From Bacilli bacterium (lineage in GTDB: Bacteria > Bacillota_I > Bacilli_A > RFN20 > CAG-826), in assembly GCA_017470115.1 (NCBI GenBank), contig JAFUEZ010000019.1, positions 1 through 34,032 on the forward strand: DNA of 34,032 bases, in the 5' to 3' direction. The notes below the pieces were generated by a model that was given only the letters and a program-made list of their open reading frames with translations, ran no database searches and was not told the DNA's origin. This document shows positions 24,382 to 34,032 of this stretch, in pieces. How positions within the stretch are numbered: the stretch's first letter is position 1; each line of letters opens with the position of its first letter. A program made the translations under genes and the position numbers.

Positions 24382-24455
24382 GGGGATGTGGTTCAATGGC
24401 AGAACAGCGGTCTCCAAAACCGTTGATGTGGGTTCGATTCCTTCCATCCCCGCCA
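24382..24455 (+). tRNA. tRNA-Trp (CCA), with a T-stem mismatch
   Basis: Acceptor stem GGGGATG / CATCCCC, anticodon loop CTCCAAA, encoded CCA at 24453-24455. The T-stem is GTGGG / CCTTC with T24429 facing T24443; the usual Bacilli sequence is GTGGG / CCTAC. The mismatch is small but real. Anticodon CCA reads UGG only, so UGA is not decoded as Trp. Confidence 0.93.
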
Positions 24456-24470
24456 ACATTAAAATCGTGA

Positions 24471-24500
24471 AATAATACGTCGAAATTGGCGTATTATTTT
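24471..24500 (+). terminator. Terminator after tRNA-Trp
   Basis: Stem AATAATACG (24471-24479) / CGTATTATT (24490-24498), then T-rich. Confidence 0.8.
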
Positions 24501-24684: not shown

Positions 24685-26307
24685 TTATTTATTTATGAAC
24701 ATGCTGAAGTTCGTGTGGTAATCGGTACATTTGATTCGATAGTCAACTCTTACCTTAAGGGCACCTGTTAGGTTATAAGGCAAGTTTGATACATCTGGAT
24801 TCCCAATTATCAGGATGACGTTGTTTTTGTCTATCACGTAAGCCCTAGAATAAAGCGATGTCATTAAATCAACCGAGAATTCAGCATTTGATGGTATAGC
24901 GTTTAAACTCTTGATAATTTTCTTTGCTCTATTTTCTGCAGAACCCGTTATTAAAAGGTCGTTTTCCATTTCCAGCTTTGCCATGGTTTTTTCTTTAAAC
25001 TCATCCATTAGAGTTTTCTTTAATTCACAGCTGAAATCATCATAGCGAGATGATATCTCTTCCAGCTTCTTTTTAAGGATGTCTATTTCTTTAGAAAGGC
25101 TTTCAATTTCCTTGGTTGAGGATTCGCTTATTTTGAACCCTTCTAAGAGCATTTCTTTTAGAAGTGGTTGATTGTCCTTTAGTTTCTTGATTGACAGCAT
25201 CACGCCCTTTTTAAATACCTCTAAATCAATGTTCTCGCCATTGCAATCCTTACTGTTTCTATTTTTTCCACACATCAGGAATTTGCTAATCCTATTATTC
25301 ACGCCATGATAGTGGTTTGTTTTTATGATGTAATTGCCCTTGCAATGCGAGCAAACTACGAAACCAACTAAATCAGATTTGACGTATTCGTTTTGCCTAT
25401 GCCCAGTTTGAATGTGGTAGTGGTCGCTTTTGCTTTTTCTTAAAGCTTGAACCTTATTCCAAGTGTCTCTATCGATAATAGCGGGGTGGTCATTTTCGAC
25501 AACAAACATGTCTCTCTCGCCAAGATTCTTCACTTTCTTATGGGTAAGAACATCGACTATGTATGTTTTATTGAGAATTGCATCGCCTACGTATTTCTCG
25601 TTTTCTAATACCTTAAGTATTGTTGATTGATGCCATAATTTGCCTAAAGGTGACTTTACCCCCTTTTGATTCAGGTATTTTGCAATTGCGCATGTTCCGT
25701 TTTCATCAAGATATAAATCGAATATTTCTCTAACTATTTTTGCCTCATCCTCGATGATTCTGACAACTTTGTTGCTTACCCTGTATCCATATAGATTCGT
25801 TGGGAATTGGTAGTGGCCTTCGCGATAATTTTTTCTATATCTCCATTTAACATTCTCGCTGACGTTCTTGACGTATTCTTCGGAGAATTTTGCGAGTATT
25901 GTTATCATCTGGTCGCATTTTTCATCTAAAGATGATATCTCCTGATCCTCGAAGTATATTTCTATTCCGAGCAATCTTGTCTCCCTTACAATTTTAAGGA
26001 AATCAACTAGGTTTCTTGAGAATCTCGATATTGATTTGACTAGGATGATATCGATGAGGCCAAGCTTTGCGTTTTCTATCATTTTCATGAATTCTTTTCT
26101 GTGGGTGATAGAGGTACCGCTGATGCCATCGTCTGGATAGATTCCTGCAAATTCCCAGTCTGGGTTTTCCAAAATAAGTGAAGTGTAGTGGATGATTTGC
26201 TCTTTCATCGATGATTCGAGCACATCTTTAGCGTTTGATATCCTCGCATATGCAGCCACCCTTAATTTTCCGTTCTTTTTAGGTTTATGTAGTGATTTAA
26301 TTACCAT
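24685..26307 (-). CDS. Large serine recombinase B
   Basis: Site-specific integrase/excisionase that cuts DNA through a serine. The N-terminal resolvase domain has Ser24 in AAYARISNA, then DDGISGTSITHRKEF and LVKSISRFSRNLVDF. The middle recombinase domain (about 170-270) is followed by a zinc ribbon (CSHC ... CGKNRNSKDC) and a Lys/Glu-rich coiled coil (about 390-450), the layout of large serine integrases. At 540 aa it is full length. It begins one base after the stop of the other recombinase, with AAAGGA upstream, so the two are one operon. It is the last gene before the terminator and the candidate att repeat. Confidence 0.93.
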   Translation of the reverse strand: MVIKSLHKPKKNGKLRVAAYARISNAKDVLESSMKEQIIHYTSLILENPDWEFAGIYPDDGISGTSITHRKEFMKMIENAKLGLIDIILVKSISRFSRNLVDFLKIVRETRLLGIEIYFEDQEISSLDEKCDQMITILAKFSEEYVKNVSENVKWRYRKNYREGHYQFPTNLYGYRVSNKVVRIIEDEAKIVREIFDLYLDENGTCAIAKYLNQKGVKSPLGKLWHQSTILKVLENEKYVGDAILNKTYIVDVLTHKKVKNLGERDMFVVENDHPAIIDRDTWNKVQALRKSKSDHYHIQTGHRQNEYVKSDLVGFVVCSHCKGNYIIKTNHYHGVNNRISKFLMCGKNRNSKDCNGENIDLEVFKKGVMLSIKKLKDNQPLLKEMLLEGFKISESSTKEIESLSKEIDILKKKLEEISSRYDDFSCELKKTLMDEFKEKTMAKLEMENDLLITGSAENRAKKIIKSLNAIPSNAEFSVDLMTSLYSRAYVIDKNNVILIIGNPDVSNLPYNLTGALKVRVDYRIKCTDYHTNFSMFINK

Positions 26308-26308
26308 A

Positions 26309-27970
26309 CTAGTCCTTTCTCACTAAGTCGTAGGATAGTTTCCTTGTTCCTTCGTTAAGTGTGTTTTCATAAATTGGTTTAAGAGAAAGTAACTCATCAA
26401 TTGAGTTTTCTAGGCAATTGGTAGCAGAAGTTGATGCAACAAATCTAAGACCGCCATCAGGTTTTTTGATGATTACCTTTATGCATTTTTTTAGCAACCT
26501 ACATGTTATTTCTTTAGTATCCAGATAAACAAATGAGTCATGTATCTCTCTAAAATAGTTCGAAGATAACAATATTTGCCTATCCAATTCGCTCAGCTGC
26601 GCTTTCGTATCGTTTAGCTTTGCATTAATCTGATTGAACTCATCGGATTCGGTTATGCTAGCAGTGGAATGGATCGCCTTTTTTAAGACCTCCTGTATTT
26701 CTTCTTGATACCTACTTCTTAATGCTAATAATTCCTCTCTTTTGATATGAATATCCTTTATTGTTTCATCAACAATCTCTTCAAAATTACTGCTAAATAA
26801 GCATTTTTTTGCAAAAAATCTATCGAAAATGTCCTTTGCGGCTTTCATTGCTAGTTCATAATCTACCGTGTGTTTGTTGGGGCATTGTATATAAGATTCA
26901 TTATTGGTTACTATCTTTTTGCATGTTAGGACATCCCTTTGAAATTTTGTGCCAGGATGTTGAGTTAATTTATTCATTGCTCTATGGCAAGATGAGCAGA
27001 TGACAAGATTATGTAGTGGTGAAAGGTCGCCCCTTTCTGCTTTGTTAGTCTTTTGCAGTTCTAGCATTTTTTGAACATAATCAAAATTAACCTTCGAAAC
27101 AATCGCTGGATGGTGATTCTCAAATATGTACTTTGGTTCAATCTCATCATTTTTGTAAGGCTTATGGTCCAAAAAATTAACGATAACCGTTTTCTGCATG
27201 ACAAAGTTGCCGATGTACTTTTCATCGGTGAGGATCCTTTTGACATCGACCGATTCCCATTTCGATTTTCCAGTGCCGGTTTTGATGCCTTGGCTTGTTA
27301 GCATTTTTGCTATCTCGCTAAGCGTGTATCCAAATTTGTAATATGAAAAGATGCTTCTTACGGTTTCTGCCTCTTGTTCCTTTATGACGATTTTCCCGTT
27401 TTCATAGTCGTATCCAAGCGTGCTTTTAACTACCATTTTCCTTTCACCTCTTTTCATGCGGCTTCTGACACCCCATTTAACATTCGAGGAGATGGTTTTA
27501 GATTCCTCTTGCGCCATGGATGCGTAAATGGTTAATTGAAATTCCACATCCTCTTCGAGTGAGTTGATATGCTCTTTGTCAAAGTAGATGGCTATCTTTG
27601 CATCTCTTAATTTCCTATATTCGGTTAGGAAATCTACGGTGTTTCTTGCCCATCTTGATATCGATTTAGTAAGTATAAGGTCAATTTTTCCTGCCAAAGC
27701 ATCATCAATCATCTCTTTGAAGCCTTTTCTATTTTTGAGTGATGTACCAGATATCCCTTCGTCAGAATAGAGTTTGACAAATTCCCATTCTGGGTTTTGT
27801 TTAATCCTCTCGGAATATTCTTCAAGCTGAGCTTTAAAAGAATTCCTTTGATCCTCAAAGTCTGTGGATACTCTTGCGTACGCGGCCACTTTCTTTTTTA
27901 TAATTGCCCCATTAGGGTCTATTGAAGTGGTTTTCTTTGGGATTACCCTTATGATTCTAGTTGTTTCCAT
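26309..27970 (-). CDS. Large serine recombinase A
   Basis: Second large serine recombinase, 553 aa. Catalytic Ser35 is in YARVSTD; DEGISGTSLKNRKGF, LTKSISRWARNTVDF and a zinc ribbon (CSSC ... C ... C) with coiled coil follow. It is clearly a paralogue of the downstream recombinase but diverged. I chose the ATG at 27970 because AAAGGAGG lies 4 bases before it; an ATG at 27985 in the same frame would put that site inside the gene. Tandem pairs such as CcrA/CcrB of SCC elements show that both proteins can be needed together. A palindrome lies just upstream. Confidence 0.92.
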   Translation of the reverse strand: METTRIIRVIPKKTTSIDPNGAIIKKKVAAYARVSTDFEDQRNSFKAQLEEYSERIKQNPEWEFVKLYSDEGISGTSLKNRKGFKEMIDDALAGKIDLILTKSISRWARNTVDFLTEYRKLRDAKIAIYFDKEHINSLEEDVEFQLTIYASMAQEESKTISSNVKWGVRSRMKRGERKMVVKSTLGYDYENGKIVIKEQEAETVRSIFSYYKFGYTLSEIAKMLTSQGIKTGTGKSKWESVDVKRILTDEKYIGNFVMQKTVIVNFLDHKPYKNDEIEPKYIFENHHPAIVSKVNFDYVQKMLELQKTNKAERGDLSPLHNLVICSSCHRAMNKLTQHPGTKFQRDVLTCKKIVTNNESYIQCPNKHTVDYELAMKAAKDIFDRFFAKKCLFSSNFEEIVDETIKDIHIKREELLALRSRYQEEIQEVLKKAIHSTASITESDEFNQINAKLNDTKAQLSELDRQILLSSNYFREIHDSFVYLDTKEITCRLLKKCIKVIIKKPDGGLRFVASTSATNCLENSIDELLSLKPIYENTLNEGTRKLSYDLVRKD

Positions 27971-27991
27971 ACTGCCTCCTTTCATTAGTAT

Positions 27992-28013
27992 TTATCACTC
28001 TAAAGAGTGATAA
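27992..28013. promoter_or_regulatory. 22-bp perfect palindrome upstream of the recombinases
   Basis: TTATCACTCT, AA, AGAGTGATAA: 10-bp arms with a 2-base centre, between the 61-aa gene and recombinase A. It could be an operator or, as RNA, a hairpin. There is no T-run on the minus strand. A half copy, ATCACTCT, recurs at 28256-28263 in the divergent control region. Confidence 0.6.
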
Positions 28014-28015
28014 TA

Positions 28016-28201
28016 TCAATTGTTTTCTACTGAAATAATACCTGTAGAAGGAATATGAAAATGCCTCTGGAAGTTTTCTATTAATTTGGCTCCAGTTGCA
28101 AATGTGATCTTGTTAGAAGTAACTAGGTCAAAGACCTTTTTCTTAAATATATCGTAAGCTGCCCCTTCATTGTCGAAAGGGGTTTTCTTTTCGTTTTTCA
28201 T
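28016..28201 (-). CDS. Small unknown protein upstream of the recombinases, 61 aa
   Basis: Not recognised. The sequence is basic and helical (NEGAAYDIFKKKVFDL, ATGAKLIENFQRHF), without membrane helix. AGGAAAGG lies about 8 bases before the ATG, and it is the first gene of the minus-strand recombinase operon. Position and size would fit a helper or directionality factor for the recombinases, but nothing in the sequence proves it. Confidence 0.65.
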   Translation of the reverse strand: MKNEKKTPFDNEGAAYDIFKKKVFDLVTSNKITFATGAKLIENFQRHFHIPSTGIISVENN

Positions 28202-28502: not shown

Positions 28503-28784
28503 ATGTCGCAAAAATCCAGAAAAAAGAAACCATTCTTCCCAAGAGATTATCTCCAAAAGATGAGGTATTCGCTCGGGTGGACGCAGAAACAAGTAGCGGT
28601 GAAGATGGGCATCGATACCTTCGTGTATAACGGTATTGAAAATGGACACAGGGGCGCGCTTATGAACGCAAAAAGACTAAAGCAGCTGGCGTTCGCTTTT
28701 GGTGTTCCAGTAGCAGAGCTCATCGATTTAGAAATCGCCTACATGGATGAAGCAATTAAAAGAACCGAAGGGATCAAAGAATGA
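28503..28784 (+). CDS. XRE-family helix-turn-helix regulator
   Basis: A 93-aa DNA-binding protein. The helix-turn-helix spans about residues 17-72: MRYSLGWTQKQVAVKMGID, FVYNGIENGHRG, RLKQLAFAFGVPVAEL. A basic N-terminal tail (SQKSRKKK) precedes it. Very strong Shine-Dalgarno. It is the first gene of the rightward operon and lies beside the four-site array, so it is the best candidate to bind those sites and control both directions. Its TGA overlaps the integrase ATG by 4 bases. Whether it represses or activates is unknown. Confidence 0.87.
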   Translation: MSQKSRKKKPFFPRDYLQKMRYSLGWTQKQVAVKMGIDTFVYNGIENGHRGALMNAKRLKQLAFAFGVPVAELIDLEIAYMDEAIKRTEGIKE

Positions 28785-29749
28785 TCACTGAATTAAAGCA
28801 GAAGATGATGGATGATGCGCCTAGCCATAAGGAGCTGGTGGAGACCTATCTAGGCTCAACCGAGTTCAGAAGCATTAACACCGAAAAAGTCTATGGTTCA
28901 ACGCTTAAGAGGTATCTGAATTATCTAGAAGAAAAACGAATCGATAAGCCAAACGAATTCACTACCAAAGCGTACAAAAAAGAACTTAGAGCGAAAGGGT
29001 TATCCGCTAGAACTCTGCAGTTGGTCACGATAGTGCTAAAAGGCTTTTATTCTTGGTGCTTAGACAATGAGCTTTATCCAAACATGGCCCGCGGACTTCA
29101 AAACGAGAAGATCCAGAAAGACTTTAAAAGAAAGTCCATAGGACTTGATAATGCGAAGAAGCTTATCGAACTATGCAGAAAAGAATACAAAGAGGATCCT
29201 AAAAATCTAGTCAAGTTAAGAAACTACACGATGATCTATCTGATGCTTCATATAGGCCTTAGAACTGTGGAAGTCTCCAACGCTGATTTTTCCAATCTCA
29301 AAACCATTGAAGGGAAGAGGTTCTTGTTTGTGAAAGGTAAAGGACATAATGATCCCGATGACGCTATTAGATTAGAGCCAAAGGTATATCAAGTCCTTAA
29401 TCGTTACATCAAGAAGAGGAAATTGACCGAAGGGGCTATTTTTGTCAACCACAGCAATAGGAATCCTAATGGAAGGATAGAGCCTAAAATCATCTCCAAA
29501 ATAGTGAAGCAGCATCTTAGAGCCATAGGCCTTAACGACGATATCTATACCGCACACGCCTTAAGGCATACATGCGCTGCTATTGCCATTGCTAATGGCG
29601 CCACTATACAGCAAGTTCAACAGTTGTTAAGGCATAAATCCATCGAAACAACAACAATCTATCTCCGTGAAATCACCCCGGAAAATAATCCAAGCCAAGG
29701 ATATATAGAAAGGGCCTTCGATGACGGAGAGGAAAACGAAGAAGAGTGA
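28781..29749 (+). CDS. Tyrosine recombinase (phage integrase family, XerC/D-like)
   Basis: Site-specific recombinase of 322 aa. N-terminal SAM-like core-binding domain (about 18-105) and C-terminal catalytic domain with Arg161 (in GLRTVEVSNADF), Lys near 185 (FVKGKG), His259-x-x-Arg262 (TAHALRHTCA), His285 (LLRHKS) and nucleophile Tyr294. All catalytic residues are present. The ATGA overlap with the XRE gene couples the two. It has no arm-binding domain, as in Xer proteins, so it may resolve or invert DNA rather than integrate the element. Confidence 0.93.
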   Translation: MITELKQKMMDDAPSHKELVETYLGSTEFRSINTEKVYGSTLKRYLNYLEEKRIDKPNEFTTKAYKKELRAKGLSARTLQLVTIVLKGFYSWCLDNELYPNMARGLQNEKIQKDFKRKSIGLDNAKKLIELCRKEYKEDPKNLVKLRNYTMIYLMLHIGLRTVEVSNADFSNLKTIEGKRFLFVKGKGHNDPDDAIRLEPKVYQVLNRYIKKRKLTEGAIFVNHSNRNPNGRIEPKIISKIVKQHLRAIGLNDDIYTAHALRHTCAAIAIANGATIQQVQQLLRHKSIETTTIYLREITPENNPSQGYIERAFDDGEENEEE

Positions 29750-29792
29750 CCATCTAAATGCGTGGAAGATGTGGAAAGACGAGGAAAAAATA

Positions 29793-30608
29793 ATGTCAAA
29801 AAACGAAAATAACGAGGTTATGCAGGGAAATTCCCTAGAAAAAGAAGAGCAAACCTCTCTCAAAATTGAAATCAAAACATTCACATCGGAGTCATTGGGA
29901 AGCTTAAGAACTGCCTATGATAACTACGGTAGACCAGTTGTTTGCCTAAAGGATGCTTGCAACATCTTAGATATCAAGAATCCTAGCGATGCCAAAGGCA
30001 GATTAAAAGCCAGTGGTGTAGTTAGGCTCGTGATGAACGATGGAAGCAAATTCAGAAACTATCTCTATGTCACCGAAGACAACCTTTACCGCTTAATCTT
30101 CCAATCAAGGAAAGAAGAAGCTGTCTTATTCATGGATTGGGTAACCGAGACCGTTCTTCCTACGATTAGGAAATTCGGAAGGTTCGACGTCCAGTTAATC
30201 AATGGATCGCCAGAAGCCGCTTTGTCATTTTTGGATTCATATAGCGAACTCAAGATTCGCAATAACATCCTTGAATCCATAAACGCCGAAACGGTAGAGG
30301 CTAGAGAATACGTCAAAAGGATGACCGATAGCGGTGTCCTCATCGATTTGTTCGACGTGCCTAGCAAACTCAAAATCAAAGGCATTAACAAAGTTAATCT
30401 CTTATCCATTTTAAGAAACAACGATGTCTTAAATAGCGATAATCTCCCTAATCAGGAATTCATCGATAAGGGATGGTTCAGGGTCATCGATTGCACCTAT
30501 AGCGACAAGAAAGCTGGTCAAGTCACTCATAAGAGAGTTTTCTGCTATAAAACCGCCATAAATGGAATGAGAAGAATCATCGAAAAGATGGTTGGAAGGA
30601 AGGACTAA
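29793..30608 (+). CDS. Phage antirepressor (BRO-N plus KilAC-like)
   Basis: A 271-aa regulator typical of temperate phages and integrated elements. The N-terminal BRO domain (about 20-110) shows YDNYGRPVVCLKDACNILDI, YVTEDNLYRLIFQSRK and VTETVLPTIRKFGRF. The C-terminal part resembles KilAC/ANT: LLSILRNNDVLN, LPNQEFIDKGWFRV and the closing KTAINGMRRIIEKM. Such proteins relieve repression of early or excision genes. I chose ATG 29793 since GAGGAA (29781-29786) is 6 bases before it; an ATG at 29721 in the same frame, inside the integrase gene, would add 24 residues. Confidence 0.85.
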   Translation: MSKNENNEVMQGNSLEKEEQTSLKIEIKTFTSESLGSLRTAYDNYGRPVVCLKDACNILDIKNPSDAKGRLKASGVVRLVMNDGSKFRNYLYVTEDNLYRLIFQSRKEEAVLFMDWVTETVLPTIRKFGRFDVQLINGSPEAALSFLDSYSELKIRNNILESINAETVEAREYVKRMTDSGVLIDLFDVPSKLKIKGINKVNLLSILRNNDVLNSDNLPNQEFIDKGWFRVIDCTYSDKKAGQVTHKRVFCYKTAINGMRRIIEKMVGRKD

Positions 30609-31036: not shown

Positions 31037-31077
31037 TGCATGTTATTTCGCTTTGAACATAAAGGAGGGTGGTTCCT

Positions 31078-31527
31078 ATGGCTAATCCGAAGAGCAAGCT
31101 CGATTGGTTTCCCGTGGACACGAGAATCCTGGAGGATCCTAAGGTCAGGAAGCTGGTCCATAAATACAAAGTGGAGGGATATGGGCTTTTTCTCCATGTC
31201 CTTTCACGCATCTATCTGAACGGGTATTTCATCAAAGATGACATCGATTCTTTTGCTTTGGATATCGCCTATGACCTCGGCTATAACGATACCGAGGAGC
31301 ATATCGCGTTGGTGAAAGAGGTGATTGAGTACATGATGAAGATCAATCTGCTCGATAGCTTTTCCTATGAATACGAATCCGTTTTTACCTCTAAAGCGAT
31401 ACAGATCCAGTTTGTCAAATCAACTTTGAGGAGAGTGCCTAGGGAGAAGCCGCACTGGTTGTTAACACCAGAAGAGGAAGCTGACGCTAGAACTTACATG
31501 AAGAATAGAGAGGATGATTCCGTGTGA
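31078..31527 (+). CDS. Lin1244/DUF4373-type replication-associated protein, probably truncated
   Basis: The N-terminal domain found in phage and ICE replication-initiation-like proteins: KLDWFPVDTRILEDPKVRKL, KVEGYGLFLHVLSRIYLNGY, then helical segments to about residue 145. I chose ATG 31078 with AAAGGAGG (31061-31068) 9 bases before; GTG 31069 lies inside that site's edge. At 149 aa it is short: relatives usually continue into a low-complexity Cys/Gln/Tyr-rich linker and a basic tail, and just that kind of sequence follows in another frame at 31530-31640. Confidence 0.75.
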   Translation: MANPKSKLDWFPVDTRILEDPKVRKLVHKYKVEGYGLFLHVLSRIYLNGYFIKDDIDSFALDIAYDLGYNDTEEHIALVKEVIEYMMKINLLDSFSYEYESVFTSKAIQIQFVKSTLRRVPREKPHWLLTPEEEADARTYMKNREDDSV

Positions 31528-31640: not shown

Positions 31641-32002
31641 AAAAGAGAATAGATATACAAGATAAATACGATATAAGGAACTGTCCGTTCCATTTGAACT
31701 ATTGGACTCGTTGCTTAATCGAGGATCATCTAATCACTGTCTACGACAACGACATATTCCTCTTCAATCAGATGTTTGATGAAAATAGCGACATCGATGA
31801 AGACCTCTTTAGAAGATGCTTCAGATACACTAGGGACTATTGCAGGAAGAACAAAAACGGAATCCATAGGATGTTCAGCTTCTTTAGAGCGGCTTTCTAT
31901 GAAAACCTGAGGAAGATGGATGGATACGATGAAAGGATGGAGAAGTGGTATGAAGAAACGAGTGCCTACCTTAGAGCAATTCGCGAAGATAGTGAGGACT
32001 AA
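31637..32002 (+). CDS. Unknown element protein, 121 aa
   Basis: Not recognised. A helical, Tyr/Phe/Arg-rich soluble protein (RNCPFHLNYWTRCLIEDHLI, CFRYTRDYCRKNKNG, FSFFRAAFYENLRKMDGYDE). The start is a GTG whose nearest Shine-Dalgarno-like AAAGGA is 14 bases away; start by coupling to the 36-aa frame (GTGA) is possible. No ATG is available before codon 46. It overlaps the next gene by 53 bases. Possibly part of the replication block, by position only. Confidence 0.6.
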   Translation: MKKRIDIQDKYDIRNCPFHLNYWTRCLIEDHLITVYDNDIFLFNQMFDENSDIDEDLFRRCFRYTRDYCRKNKNGIHRMFSFFRAAFYENLRKMDGYDERMEKWYEETSAYLRAIREDSED

Positions 32003-32384
32003 TAAAAGAAGGCTTGAAAGGCTATATGAGGAACTAGGCTACGCCAGGTATTTGATGTACGCCGCTCAAGGAATAGATTATTCAAAGCCCAACGTCCAGC
32101 ATTCGACTCCTCAATTCGACAAGATAACCATCGACCTAGATCGAATAGATAGGATTGAAAAGAAAATCGCCTACTATGAATCATTCAATGTCTTATGGAC
32201 TAAATGGCAGAAGAAGATGACCCCTAGAGAGACTGATGTCTTTCATAAATGCTACATGCAAGATAAGGCAGTAGTGGATATTTCTGCCGAGTTACAAGTT
32301 TCAAATGTACGAATTTATGGACTTATAGGCCAATTAGAGGCTAAGTATGAGGAATTTACTAAAGAAAATTCTCAATACTTATAG
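31950..32384 (+). CDS. ArpU/RinA-like phage regulator with sigma-type helix-turn-helix
   Basis: A 144-aa protein. The N-terminal half is helical and basic (FAKIVRTNKRRLERLYEELG), followed by DRIDRIEKKIAYYESF and a C-terminal sigma-70 region-4-like helix-turn-helix: KMTPRETDVFHKCYMQDKAV, then ISAELQVSNVRIYGLIGQLEAKY. This layout is seen in ArpU/RinA late-gene activators next to terminase genes of phages. I chose ATG 31950 with GGAG (31939-31942) 7 bases before; ATG 31920 would add 10 residues. It is the last gene with element-like composition before the restriction-modification module. Confidence 0.72.
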   Translation: MKKRVPTLEQFAKIVRTNKRRLERLYEELGYARYLMYAAQGIDYSKPNVQHSTPQFDKITIDLDRIDRIEKKIAYYESFNVLWTKWQKKMTPRETDVFHKCYMQDKAVVDISAELQVSNVRIYGLIGQLEAKYEEFTKENSQYL

Positions 32385-32439: not shown

Positions 32440-32628
32440 ATGACCTACGCAGAAGCAATAAAGACTTTACGTAAGAAAATGCTCATTACACAGACTGAGT
32501 TAGCCGCCCAATTAGGGGTTGCTTTTGTAAGTGTCAATAGATGGGAAAACGGTTCATATGAGCCAACCATGAAAGCAAAGAGAAAACTTGCTCCGTTGTT
32601 TGAAAAATACGGTATAGAGGTGAAATAG
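32440..32628 (+). CDS. Small XRE regulator, likely controller protein
   Basis: A 62-aa single helix-turn-helix protein: AIKTLRKKMLITQTELAAQL, GVAFVSVNRWENGSYEP, KRKLAPLFEKYGIEV. Shine-Dalgarno GGAGG. It ends 1 base before the methyltransferase GTG, so both are one transcript, and the inverted repeat across its own -10 box suggests it controls itself and the methyltransferase. This is the arrangement of controller proteins in restriction-modification systems, but it is wider in sequence than the classical C proteins, so the role is inferred from context. Confidence 0.85.
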   Translation: MTYAEAIKTLRKKMLITQTELAAQLGVAFVSVNRWENGSYEPTMKAKRKLAPLFEKYGIEVK

Positions 32629-32629
32629 A

Positions 32630-34032
32630 GTGGCAAACAAACTAGAACTCACTTGGTTTGGAAAAGACAATCAGATTGGTATTGAACCAAGAATATTATT
32701 GGAAAACAAATCTCTAAGTCATAAAAGAGAGATGACTTCTTTGTTTGCTGAAGAAGAATATTTCGACAATGTTTTAATCCACGGAGATAATCTATTGGCT
32801 TTAAAGACATTGGAAAATCTTTATCCAAAAAAAATTAAGTGTATTTATATTGATCCTCCTTTTAATACAGGTGTAAGAATTGATGCCGATGGCAAAGAGA
32901 TTGGATACGATGATGGTATTGAACATTCGATATGGCTATCTTTGATGCACGCTAGATTGAAACTGCTCAGAAATCTTTTGAGCGATGATGGCGCAATTTT
33001 TATCCATTTAGATGATAACGAAGTTGATTATTGTAAAGTCTTGTGCGATGAAGTTTTTGGAAGAAAAAATTTCATGAATAGAATCACGGTTGACTCAAGA
33101 TCTCCTTCAGCATTTAGCACAGTCAATCCTGGAGTGTTTAAGGCTGCTGAATATATTTTGTTTTATGCCAAAGATAGAAGCCAGCTCGTAGAAAACCAAT
33201 TAAGAACCGCTAGAGATCCAGATTATGCTTATGACAAATATATTTTAAATATTGATGATGACTATAAAAAATGGCAATTCATTAATGTTTCTGACGCTTA
33301 TCAAAGATTTAATTCCAATAATTCTGGAAAGCCTCAGCAAGTATTAAATAGTTATCACAAATTCATTGTTGAAAACGCTCACAGAATCTTTAGATTCACC
33401 GCAATTAGCGATACAGGTGCTGGTCAAGCGGTGGTTGAGTTGAAATACAAATCAAAAGAAACTCCAACAGAAATTCTAAAAATGGAGAGAGGAAATGGTC
33501 TTGATGACGTTTATGTTTTGAATGGACAACAAATCTCTTTTTACTCCAAAAACATTGCTGTTATTGATGGCAAGAAAACCCCGTCTATGATTTTGACTGA
33601 TATTTGGAAAGATATAGCATGGGAAGGTATTGCATCTGAAGGTGGTGTAAGATTTAAAAAAGGCAAGAAACCAGAAAAGCTCATTAAACGCTGCTTAGAT
33701 TTAGTTACTAAGCCGGGTGATTGGGTTTTAGATTCATTCCTTGGTTCCGGTACAACAGCGGCAGTTGCTCATAAAATGCATAGACGTTGGATCGGCATTG
33801 AAATGGGTGAACACGCTTATTCTCTTTGCAAGCCACGATTAGACAGGATAATCAATGATGAAGATAAAAGCGGTATTTCAAAACTTGTTAATTGGACCGG
33901 TGGTGGTGGCTACAAGTTCTATGAATTAGCTCCAACCCTTATCAATATCGATGCTTTCGGCCAACCAGTTATCAATAAAGATTACAATTCTGACATGCTT
34001 GCAGCAGCTGTTGCTATGCACGAAGGATTCAA
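32630..34032 (+). CDS. DNA adenine methyltransferase, type III Mod-like, 3'-partial
   Basis: Modifies adenine N6 in a specific DNA sequence. The frame stays open for 467 codons to the window edge. Motif IV DPPF is at 75-78 (IYIDPPFNTG) and motif I FLGSGTT at 370-376, so the order is that of the beta class used by type III Mod proteins. The variable stretch between them (about 150-340) would be the target-recognition region. HGDNLLALKTLENL and WLSLMHARLKLLRNLLSDDG are typical. The GTG start has AGAGG 9 bases upstream; no ATG fits better. The nuclease partner should lie downstream. Codon use is closer to the host than the preceding element genes. Confidence 0.9.
   Translation, partial: MANKLELTWFGKDNQIGIEPRILLENKSLSHKREMTSLFAEEEYFDNVLIHGDNLLALKTLENLYPKKIKCIYIDPPFNTGVRIDADGKEIGYDDGIEHSIWLSLMHARLKLLRNLLSDDGAIFIHLDDNEVDYCKVLCDEVFGRKNFMNRITVDSRSPSAFSTVNPGVFKAAEYILFYAKDRSQLVENQLRTARDPDYAYDKYILNIDDDYKKWQFINVSDAYQRFNSNNSGKPQQVLNSYHKFIVENAHRIFRFTAISDTGAGQAVVELKYKSKETPTEILKMERGNGLDDVYVLNGQQISFYSKNIAVIDGKKTPSMILTDIWKDIAWEGIASEGGVRFKKGKKPEKLIKRCLDLVTKPGDWVLDSFLGSGTTAAVAHKMHRRWIGIEMGEHAYSLCKPRLDRIINDEDKSGISKLVNWTGGGGYKFYELAPTLINIDAFGQPVINKDYNSDMLAAAVAMHEGF

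Follow-up and report, generated by a model that had tools for sequence, protein, structure and literature searches.

Tandem large serine recombinases beside tRNA 3′ ends: a probable integration module of a prophage-like element in Bacilli

What would two large serine recombinases (LSRs), encoded one behind the other, be doing at the end of a tRNA gene? The question is raised by contig JAFUEZ010000019.1 of a Bacilli bacterium (assembly GCA_017470115.1), the entire 34,032 bp of which (G000:C7 in our set, part of a 1.4-Mb genome) are called the window here. On its minus strand lie LSR-A (540 aa, 24685..26307), its partner LSR-B (558 aa, 26309..27985) and an open reading frame (ORF) of 61 aa (28016..28201). 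LSR-A is convergent with a plus-strand tRNA-Trp gene (anticodon CCA, 24382..24455, ARAGORN), the presumed host target, and stops 229 bp short of its 3′ terminus. Most likely these three genes form the module that integrated a prophage or prophage-like element at the 3′ end of this tRNA-Trp, the LSR pair being specialised in the 3′ ends of tRNA genes.

A recombinase clade at the ends of tRNA genes

Relatives were gathered by sequence similarity from the same order, from public genomes and from viral contigs, and 80 of 564 confirmed genome loci and 80 of 476 viral loci were taken in. The LSR-A clade was defined by a score of at least 430 against a profile of eight members, namely the window's LSR-A and the seven best hits of the first relative search. 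Among its 36 unique members are a fragment of the LSR-A of the window (L002) and a sequence cut by the splitting of regions (L295). In a FastTree phylogeny of 116 rows, for which candidates were thinned by similarity from 328 to 238 and the best 75 served as outsiders, the LSR-A members form a single clade (27 rows, local support 100).

A tRNA or transfer-messenger RNA (tmRNA) gene lies convergent and within 450 bp in 20 of the 26 unique terminal members of this clade that have at least 450 bp of downstream sequence, the window included. The 20 counted cases are all convergent and lie at 183–397 bp, measured from the last sense codon of the LSR. Two loci with a tRNA or tmRNA recognised by eye (L097, L207) are left out of this count, and more cases have a shorter flank or a tRNA that is cut by the contig end. 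Outside the profile's own seven countable members, adjacency is 13/19, and among LSRs scoring 370–430 it is 1/64, the single case (L195) being a truncated LSR-A relative; 13/19 against 1/64 carries the same message as the full count. By profile score, the adjacent fractions are 0/7 (400–430), 1/57 (370–400), 6/39 (330–370), 3/20 (250–330) and 0/5 (lower).

The targets cover 13 anticodons, for Trp, Arg (two), Leu (three), Gly, His, Glu, Thr, Met, Ser and Cys, plus tmRNA. One nearly identical element is found at two of them: L118 at tRNA-Leu(GAG) and L235 at tRNA-Cys(GCA) have LSR-As that are 95.8% and LSR-Bs that are 98.1% identical, and their element sequences are near-identical starting directly after the CCA. 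Near-identical pairs at different tRNAs, together with the many targets, suggest that the target is a feature common to tRNA genes and not one particular gene. LSR pairs outside the LSR-A clade are also seen beside tRNA 3′ ends (L114, L147, L156, L259), with RATAC (R, purine) at +19 from the CCA in three of these loci and one base off in L259.

A conserved pair and its small companion

Both recombinases of the window exceed the curated Pfam cut-offs for Resolvase and Recombinase, and match PHROG_95 (integrase) with E values of 3.6e-110 and 8e-106. Zn_ribbon_recom scores under its cut-off in both, with CxxC pairs visible in the alignments. The catalytic motif YARxS and the conserved residues around it are kept in LSR-A and LSR-B, which are diverged paralogs (36% identity over LSR-A residues 14–427). 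A description of the locus made earlier from its letters alone (the sequence-only reading) had recognised two full-length, catalytically complete but diverged recombinases, and the ORFs, the intact motifs and the domain scores bear this out; the tRNA target, which is the main feature, had escaped it. In the AlphaFold model of LSR-A, long helices span residues 395–418 and 424–454 (mean predicted local distance difference test, pLDDT, 76.9; predicted template modelling score 0.41). The domain of the DUF4368 multi-targeting LSR clade is not matched in Pfam at E 0.01.

The LSR-B partners fall in a second clade (36 rows, support 87), alongside some other LSRs. LSR-A and LSR-B distances are correlated over 24 pairs (Mantel r 0.876, with 0 of 20000 permutations as high), a set that includes two near-identical couples (L118/L235, L104/L210), as does the set of 24 used for the small ORF below. 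Only sequences with a YxRxS motif were admitted to the correlation, and its 24/24 is hence descriptive. Tandem arrangement is found for 33 of the 36 unique terminal LSRs of the LSR-A clade. LSR-A and LSR-B are, as far as sequence comparison can tell, an ancient and conserved paralog pair.

Decay of one recombinase in related elements, which together with dispensability the sequence-only reading had named as what would refute it, is seen in part: the N-terminal part of LSR-B is missing beside a full-length LSR-A in four relatives (G049, G116, G287:C9, G227), and G274 retains only the last part of LSR-A. Dispensability does not follow from this, since the N-terminus of LSR-B is the part farthest from the tRNA, and deletions inside old elements would leave the same picture. 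A search for LSR-B in viral contigs gave no match.

In 24/24 readable pairs of the LSR-A clade, LSR-B is preceded by a small ORF of 45–90 aa whose pattern, by eye, is shared, so chance is an unlikely origin for the 61-aa ORF, and the small helical companion beside a phage early region that had been noticed from the sequence can be retained. The model of the small-ORF family is a two-helix hairpin (mean pLDDT 75). Its Pfam matches are weak and SHOCT-like (SHOCT_2 in 4/21 members, best E 0.0014; below cut-off for the window's protein), and profile and fold searches of the PDB with the family gave chance-level matches only. The protein may be a directionality factor, as the sequence-only reading proposed, or have a regulatory role. 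Of the single operon proposed earlier, the head-to-tail order holds, running from the 61-aa ORF through LSR-B to LSR-A in the direction of transcription with gaps of 30 bp and 1 bp; co-expression, with the 61-aa ORF as the presumed first gene, we infer from this spacing alone.

Attachment sites and the predicted crossover

Both ends could be read in a related prophage of ~43.8 kb (G251). At the LSR end, tRNA-Trp closes in CCA and the element comes next; at the far end, the element arm closes in CCA and a terminator-like flank follows. The bases common to the two ends (attL and attR) are GCCA. The distal flank recurs in G252 after a different sequence, and identity starts at GCCA. The reconstructed attP is palindromic about CA at 14 of 26 positions, with GAACG at 9–13 and GATAC at 19–23 outward on both sides. 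As a control, 1813 CCA sites in the same 60 kb were scored; five reach 14 matches and none is higher, thus the count alone is not decisive, and the placement of the motifs is. A contiguous site beside another LSR pair, in G018, has TGATAC at 18–23 outward on either side of CA. By sequence comparison, the G251 and G018 sites are compatible with a 2-bp crossover and symmetric half-sites, the window's own site not being readable.

The T-loop stands at a constant distance from the CCA in tRNA genes, and in the tRNA half-site it reads CGAACC at 18–23 outward. In the window, the 3′ part of tRNA-Trp is the predicted chromosomal half of the attachment site: the T-loop (GTTCGA by pattern search, plus strand) is at 24432–24437, and the CCA end at 24453..24455 (plus strand) would be the crossover core, with CA at 24454–24455 as the central dinucleotide, by analogy with the sites of G251 and G018.

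A tyrosine system would be expected to leave long direct repeats at both ends of the element; among 12-mers of the tRNA region in seven contigs, no convincing end pair was seen. A scan for P arms with the profile of P′ half-sites described below did not find the distal ends, and the real P arm of G251 was outside its top four hits. A second copy of tRNA-Trp is present ~6.4 kb past the distal prophage flank in both genomes (G251:C1:22151, G252:C3:11930).

The phage half-site and its terminator

Directly after the CCA, the window has an element-derived P′ half-site, ACATTAAAATCGTGAAATAATACG, found by a signature pattern at 24456..24479 (plus strand), with AATAC at +19..+23 from the CCA (24474-24478). 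The combined signature has a single match in the 34-kb window and 0 in 100 shuffles. A P′ profile separates LSR-A flanks from 74 other tRNA flanks (leave-one-out p 1.5e-9); it used 20 of the 24 collected flanks, the divergent L104, L118, L235 and L211 having been left out beforehand, and the 74 controls include many tRNA-Trp flanks of the window's genus that were fetched on purpose, as well as LSR-adjacent ones recognised later (L103, L295 and others). The half-site sits in a hairpin that is followed by T residues, at 24469..24500 in the window (plus strand, RNA fold z −4.04) and, by eye, in many of the other 23 flanks. The element is thus predicted to supply a new terminator to the tRNA. Identical half-sites stand behind different tRNA genes in different genera, which suits mobile elements.

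At seven other loci (L085, L042, L038, L330, L335, L339, L324), a recurring sequence, TCTTATAACTAACATTTTGATAC, and near variants of it directly follow the CCA of different tRNA genes, and several of these loci have iterons like CTACTAGAAAAACG. Behind the recurring sequence in L085 and L335 are methylase-like genes (by eye), and no recombinase is visible in the available sequence. Such loci are possibly non-autonomous elements.

Two other arrangements were noticed around P′. In an Izimaplasma contig (L121, 3211-3550), a P′ arm as in L207 is preceded by non-tRNA sequence and has a gene like those of insertion sequences near it (by eye); as a natural attP this locus is doubtful, and a secondary site, a tandem copy or a rearrangement would each fit. 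In L118, L207, L229 and L008, one or two inverted T-arm-like motifs (e.g. GGATTTGAACTT, ~45 bp apart) are seen by eye between P′ and LSR-A.

Owners of the pair

Genes for portal, large terminase, head protease, major head protein, major tail protein, tape measure and holin are found in an IMG/VR record that carries the pair (G290). Of these seven proteins, G251 has 7, G282 and G284 have 6 each, and G286, the contig of which begins inside the prophage, has 4. The terminases of the related prophages are 75-76% identical to that of G290. From this gene content, the owners G290, G251, G282, G284 and G286 are classed as temperate tailed phages. The association with a prophage-like region had been called uncommon in the sequence-only reading; this is not supported, given the tandem pairs throughout the clade and the head, tail and packaging genes of some owners. 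The window element resembles these relatives in its early genes, and the contig ends before any head, tail or packaging gene.

A mechanism for integration at the tRNA end

Comparison of sequences provides the tRNA adjacency, the GCCA breakpoint in one complete prophage, the partial palindrome and the coevolution of the pair. In the mechanism proposed, LSR-A and LSR-B would act together as an ancient paralog pair. Their phage site, the partial palindrome GTATC-N18-CA-N18-GATAC, would be joined to a tRNA gene end by a crossover in the CCA tail that the gene encodes, at its CA. On the tRNA side, the T-loop (GGTTCRA) would be recognised in place of the outer phage motif. As the T-loop is at a fixed distance from the CCA, the same kind of enzyme could use many tRNA and tmRNA genes. 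The tRNA would remain undamaged because the crossover falls in the CCA, and the phage half-site would bring it a new terminator.

A wider version is offered tentatively, as one that is open to considerable doubt. To a heteromeric serine integrase pair, the T-loop and CCA that all tRNA 3′ ends share would be a landing site of general use, and the phage could enter nearly any tRNA or tmRNA gene harmlessly and with a terminator. The same half-site would be carried by a much larger set of elements, which may be moved in trans and some of which have defence-like cargo and no visible recombinase.

Opposing evidence and rival explanations

Several observations weigh against integration by the pair at tRNA ends. 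The LSR-A profile was built after the tRNA scan was known, and the next hits (G062:C69, G060), which have no tRNA, were not included in it. Six of the 26 clade members have no ARAGORN tRNA in reach (L009, L190, L191, L121, L210 and L207, the last with a tmRNA end recognised by eye). A joined empty attB of G251 was not found among 37 genus members, and the T-loop and the left phage arm have the same base at 4/6 positions. The right end of the window's own element lies beyond the contig end; a second copy of the tRNA-Trp end, which would be its attR, was not found in its own genome, and the G290 terminase has no match in the same assembly in a search that had no positive control.

The remaining points concern the half-site. 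RATRC at +19 is present in 11/25 LSR-A flanks (including second tRNAs in line, as in L104, L204 and L034) and 5/11 other LSR flanks, and also in 12/60 tRNA flanks that have no nearby LSR (Fisher p 0.03 and 0.12), which weakens it as a specific marker of LSRs. The pattern tRNA-CCA-N18-RATAC occurs in 111/144 genomes, the reversed control pattern being without a match; of 30 RATAC loci that were fetched, some with hardly any sequence downstream, only 2 show an LSR. Because the half-site also follows LSR-less tRNAs, the presence of the motif does not prove that of an LSR element. P′ overlaps the terminator hairpin, which could alone conserve the sequence there, and a conserved terminator motif is an alternative to mobile elements for the identical half-sites in different genera.

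The rival that survives best, and that we nevertheless find improbable, assigns integration at the tRNA to the XerC-like tyrosine recombinase of the window (28781..29749, plus strand; Pfam, NCBIfam and locus comparison) and leaves another role, such as inversion or resolution, to the LSR pair. Its gene is found in 15/17 LSR-A loci and in 3/8 other LSR-tRNA loci tested, which also counts against integration by the pair, and tRNA genes are as a rule the targets of tyrosine integrases according to the available part of one report (PMC4383910). The attL and attR of G251, however, share GCCA only, and the half-sites are symmetric about a 2-bp centre. A short shared core and symmetric half-sites about a 2-bp centre are expected of serine and not of tyrosine recombinases. 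Moreover, it is LSR-A that abuts the site in the counted cases and not the tyrosine gene, and three loci with an LSR and a tRNA have no XerC-like match (L205, with ~6 kb of element side, L147, ~9.9 kb, and L079, ~7.9 kb); in the remaining XerC-negative loci the flank is too short to tell. Most LSR-A loci tested thus carry three recombinases, the LSR pair and the XerC-like one. The XerC-like copy in G165 (L300, an element at tRNA-His) is 88.9% identical to that of the window, and the LSR-As of the two belong to different subclades, which suggests module exchange.

Even less probable is that proximity to tRNA genes is a side effect, the region behind tRNAs being a general hotspot and RATAC just a host terminator motif. 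The tRNA-Trp flank is hypervariable in the genus, with integrase-like, methylase or transposase genes in some genomes (by eye), and RATAC follows many tRNAs without a visible LSR, inside terminator-like hairpins. A general hotspot, however, does not account well for adjacency in 13/19 of one LSR clade (profile members excluded) as against 1/64 of the next-scoring LSRs, for the convergent orientation of the 20 counted cases at 183–397 bp, or for nearly the same element at two different tRNAs (L118, L235). The motif also recurs in the distal arm of G251 and, in G018, to either side of CA.

The pair is very improbably a CcrAB-like cassette recombinase pair of a staphylococcal cassette chromosome (SCC) or an element like integrative and conjugative elements (ICEs) in place of a phage integrase: tandem LSRs, best NCBIfam matches to CcrB and CcrC, and serine integrases known in rows from ICEs (PMC4701971, in the part available) speak for it, but the Ccr scores are far under the cut-offs, phage early genes adjoin the pair, relatives lie in prophages with structural genes, and the adjoining gene is tRNA-Trp and not rlmH. 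The comparison with CcrA/CcrB in the sequence-only reading does not extend to family membership, as LSR-A scores 132.3 bits for CcrB and 46.8 for CcrA, and LSR-B 95.5 and 78.1, where 900 and 700 bits are needed.

Relation to known systems

CcrA and CcrB, which integrate SCC elements at rlmH, resemble the window pair as two tandem LSRs and as its best NCBIfam matches; the window pair differs in its scores, its phage context and its tRNA target. The serine integrase triplets of streptococcal ICEs target mutT, traG and hsdM and are also LSRs in a row, with the same orientation to the target, a shared core of 2-8 bp and paralogs that cluster by position; there are three genes, however, and a tRNA target is not mentioned for the triplets in the accessible portion of that paper (PMC4701971). 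Serine recombinases at tRNA genes are termed rare in the part of PMC3218068 at hand, which names mycobacterial actinomycete ICEs (tRNA-Leu) and phage phiRSM1 (tRNA-Ser). These share with the window pair a serine recombinase at a tRNA gene, but use one tRNA each and are not described there as paired. The DUF4368 multi-targeting LSRs likewise combine one recombinase type with many targets; the example given in the excerpt available has an AT-rich motif with a TT core, unlike the window pair, which also lacks the domain, and the word 'tRNA' is absent from the main text (PMC10083194). In Islander, as far as the accessible text goes, tyrosine integrases are the only integrase family known to target tRNA genes, and their tRNA and tmRNA islands share with the present elements the target class and the retention of tRNA function; the enzyme family is another, and their attP holds a tRNA fragment where G251 shares GCCA only (PMC4383910).

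No description of a paired serine integrase of tRNA genes was recognised in the literature searched, outside of which most subscription journals and preprints lay. Large genomic-island databases may contain such tRNA-targeting serine pairs uncommented. Serine-type enzymes at tRNA ends would be at a target reported as rare for this enzyme type. If the proposed reading is true, a whole clade of tRNA-using serine integrase pairs would change the prediction of prophage ends, would draw attention to a class of prophages that has gone largely unnoticed, in Bacilli for which metagenomes are the main source, and would supply integrases with a landing site that bacteria in general possess. Testable questions follow, too: why two recombinases are used and how recognition of the T-loop could stand in for the phage motif.

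Neighbouring genes in the window

The first ~24 kb of the window hold chromosomal-looking genes (read by eye), and tRNA-Trp is the final gene ahead of the element. On the far side of the recombinase module, the plus strand carries a divergent early operon. It begins with a helix-turn-helix regulator (28503..28784; Pfam, PHROG), followed by the XerC-like gene, which is found in most related elements tested and is of XerC/D type, and by a phage antirepressor with Bro-N and ANT domains (29721..30608; Pfam, PHROG). Further along are a Lin1244-type replication initiation protein (31069..31527; Pfam, PHROG) and a phage transcription regulator (31920..32384; phrog_36, E 9.4e-05). The last stretch (32440..34032, plus strand) contains, by eye, what we take to be a small helix-turn-helix-like gene and then an adenine methylase-like gene with a DPPFNT motif that is cut by the contig end; these two genes are probably cargo.

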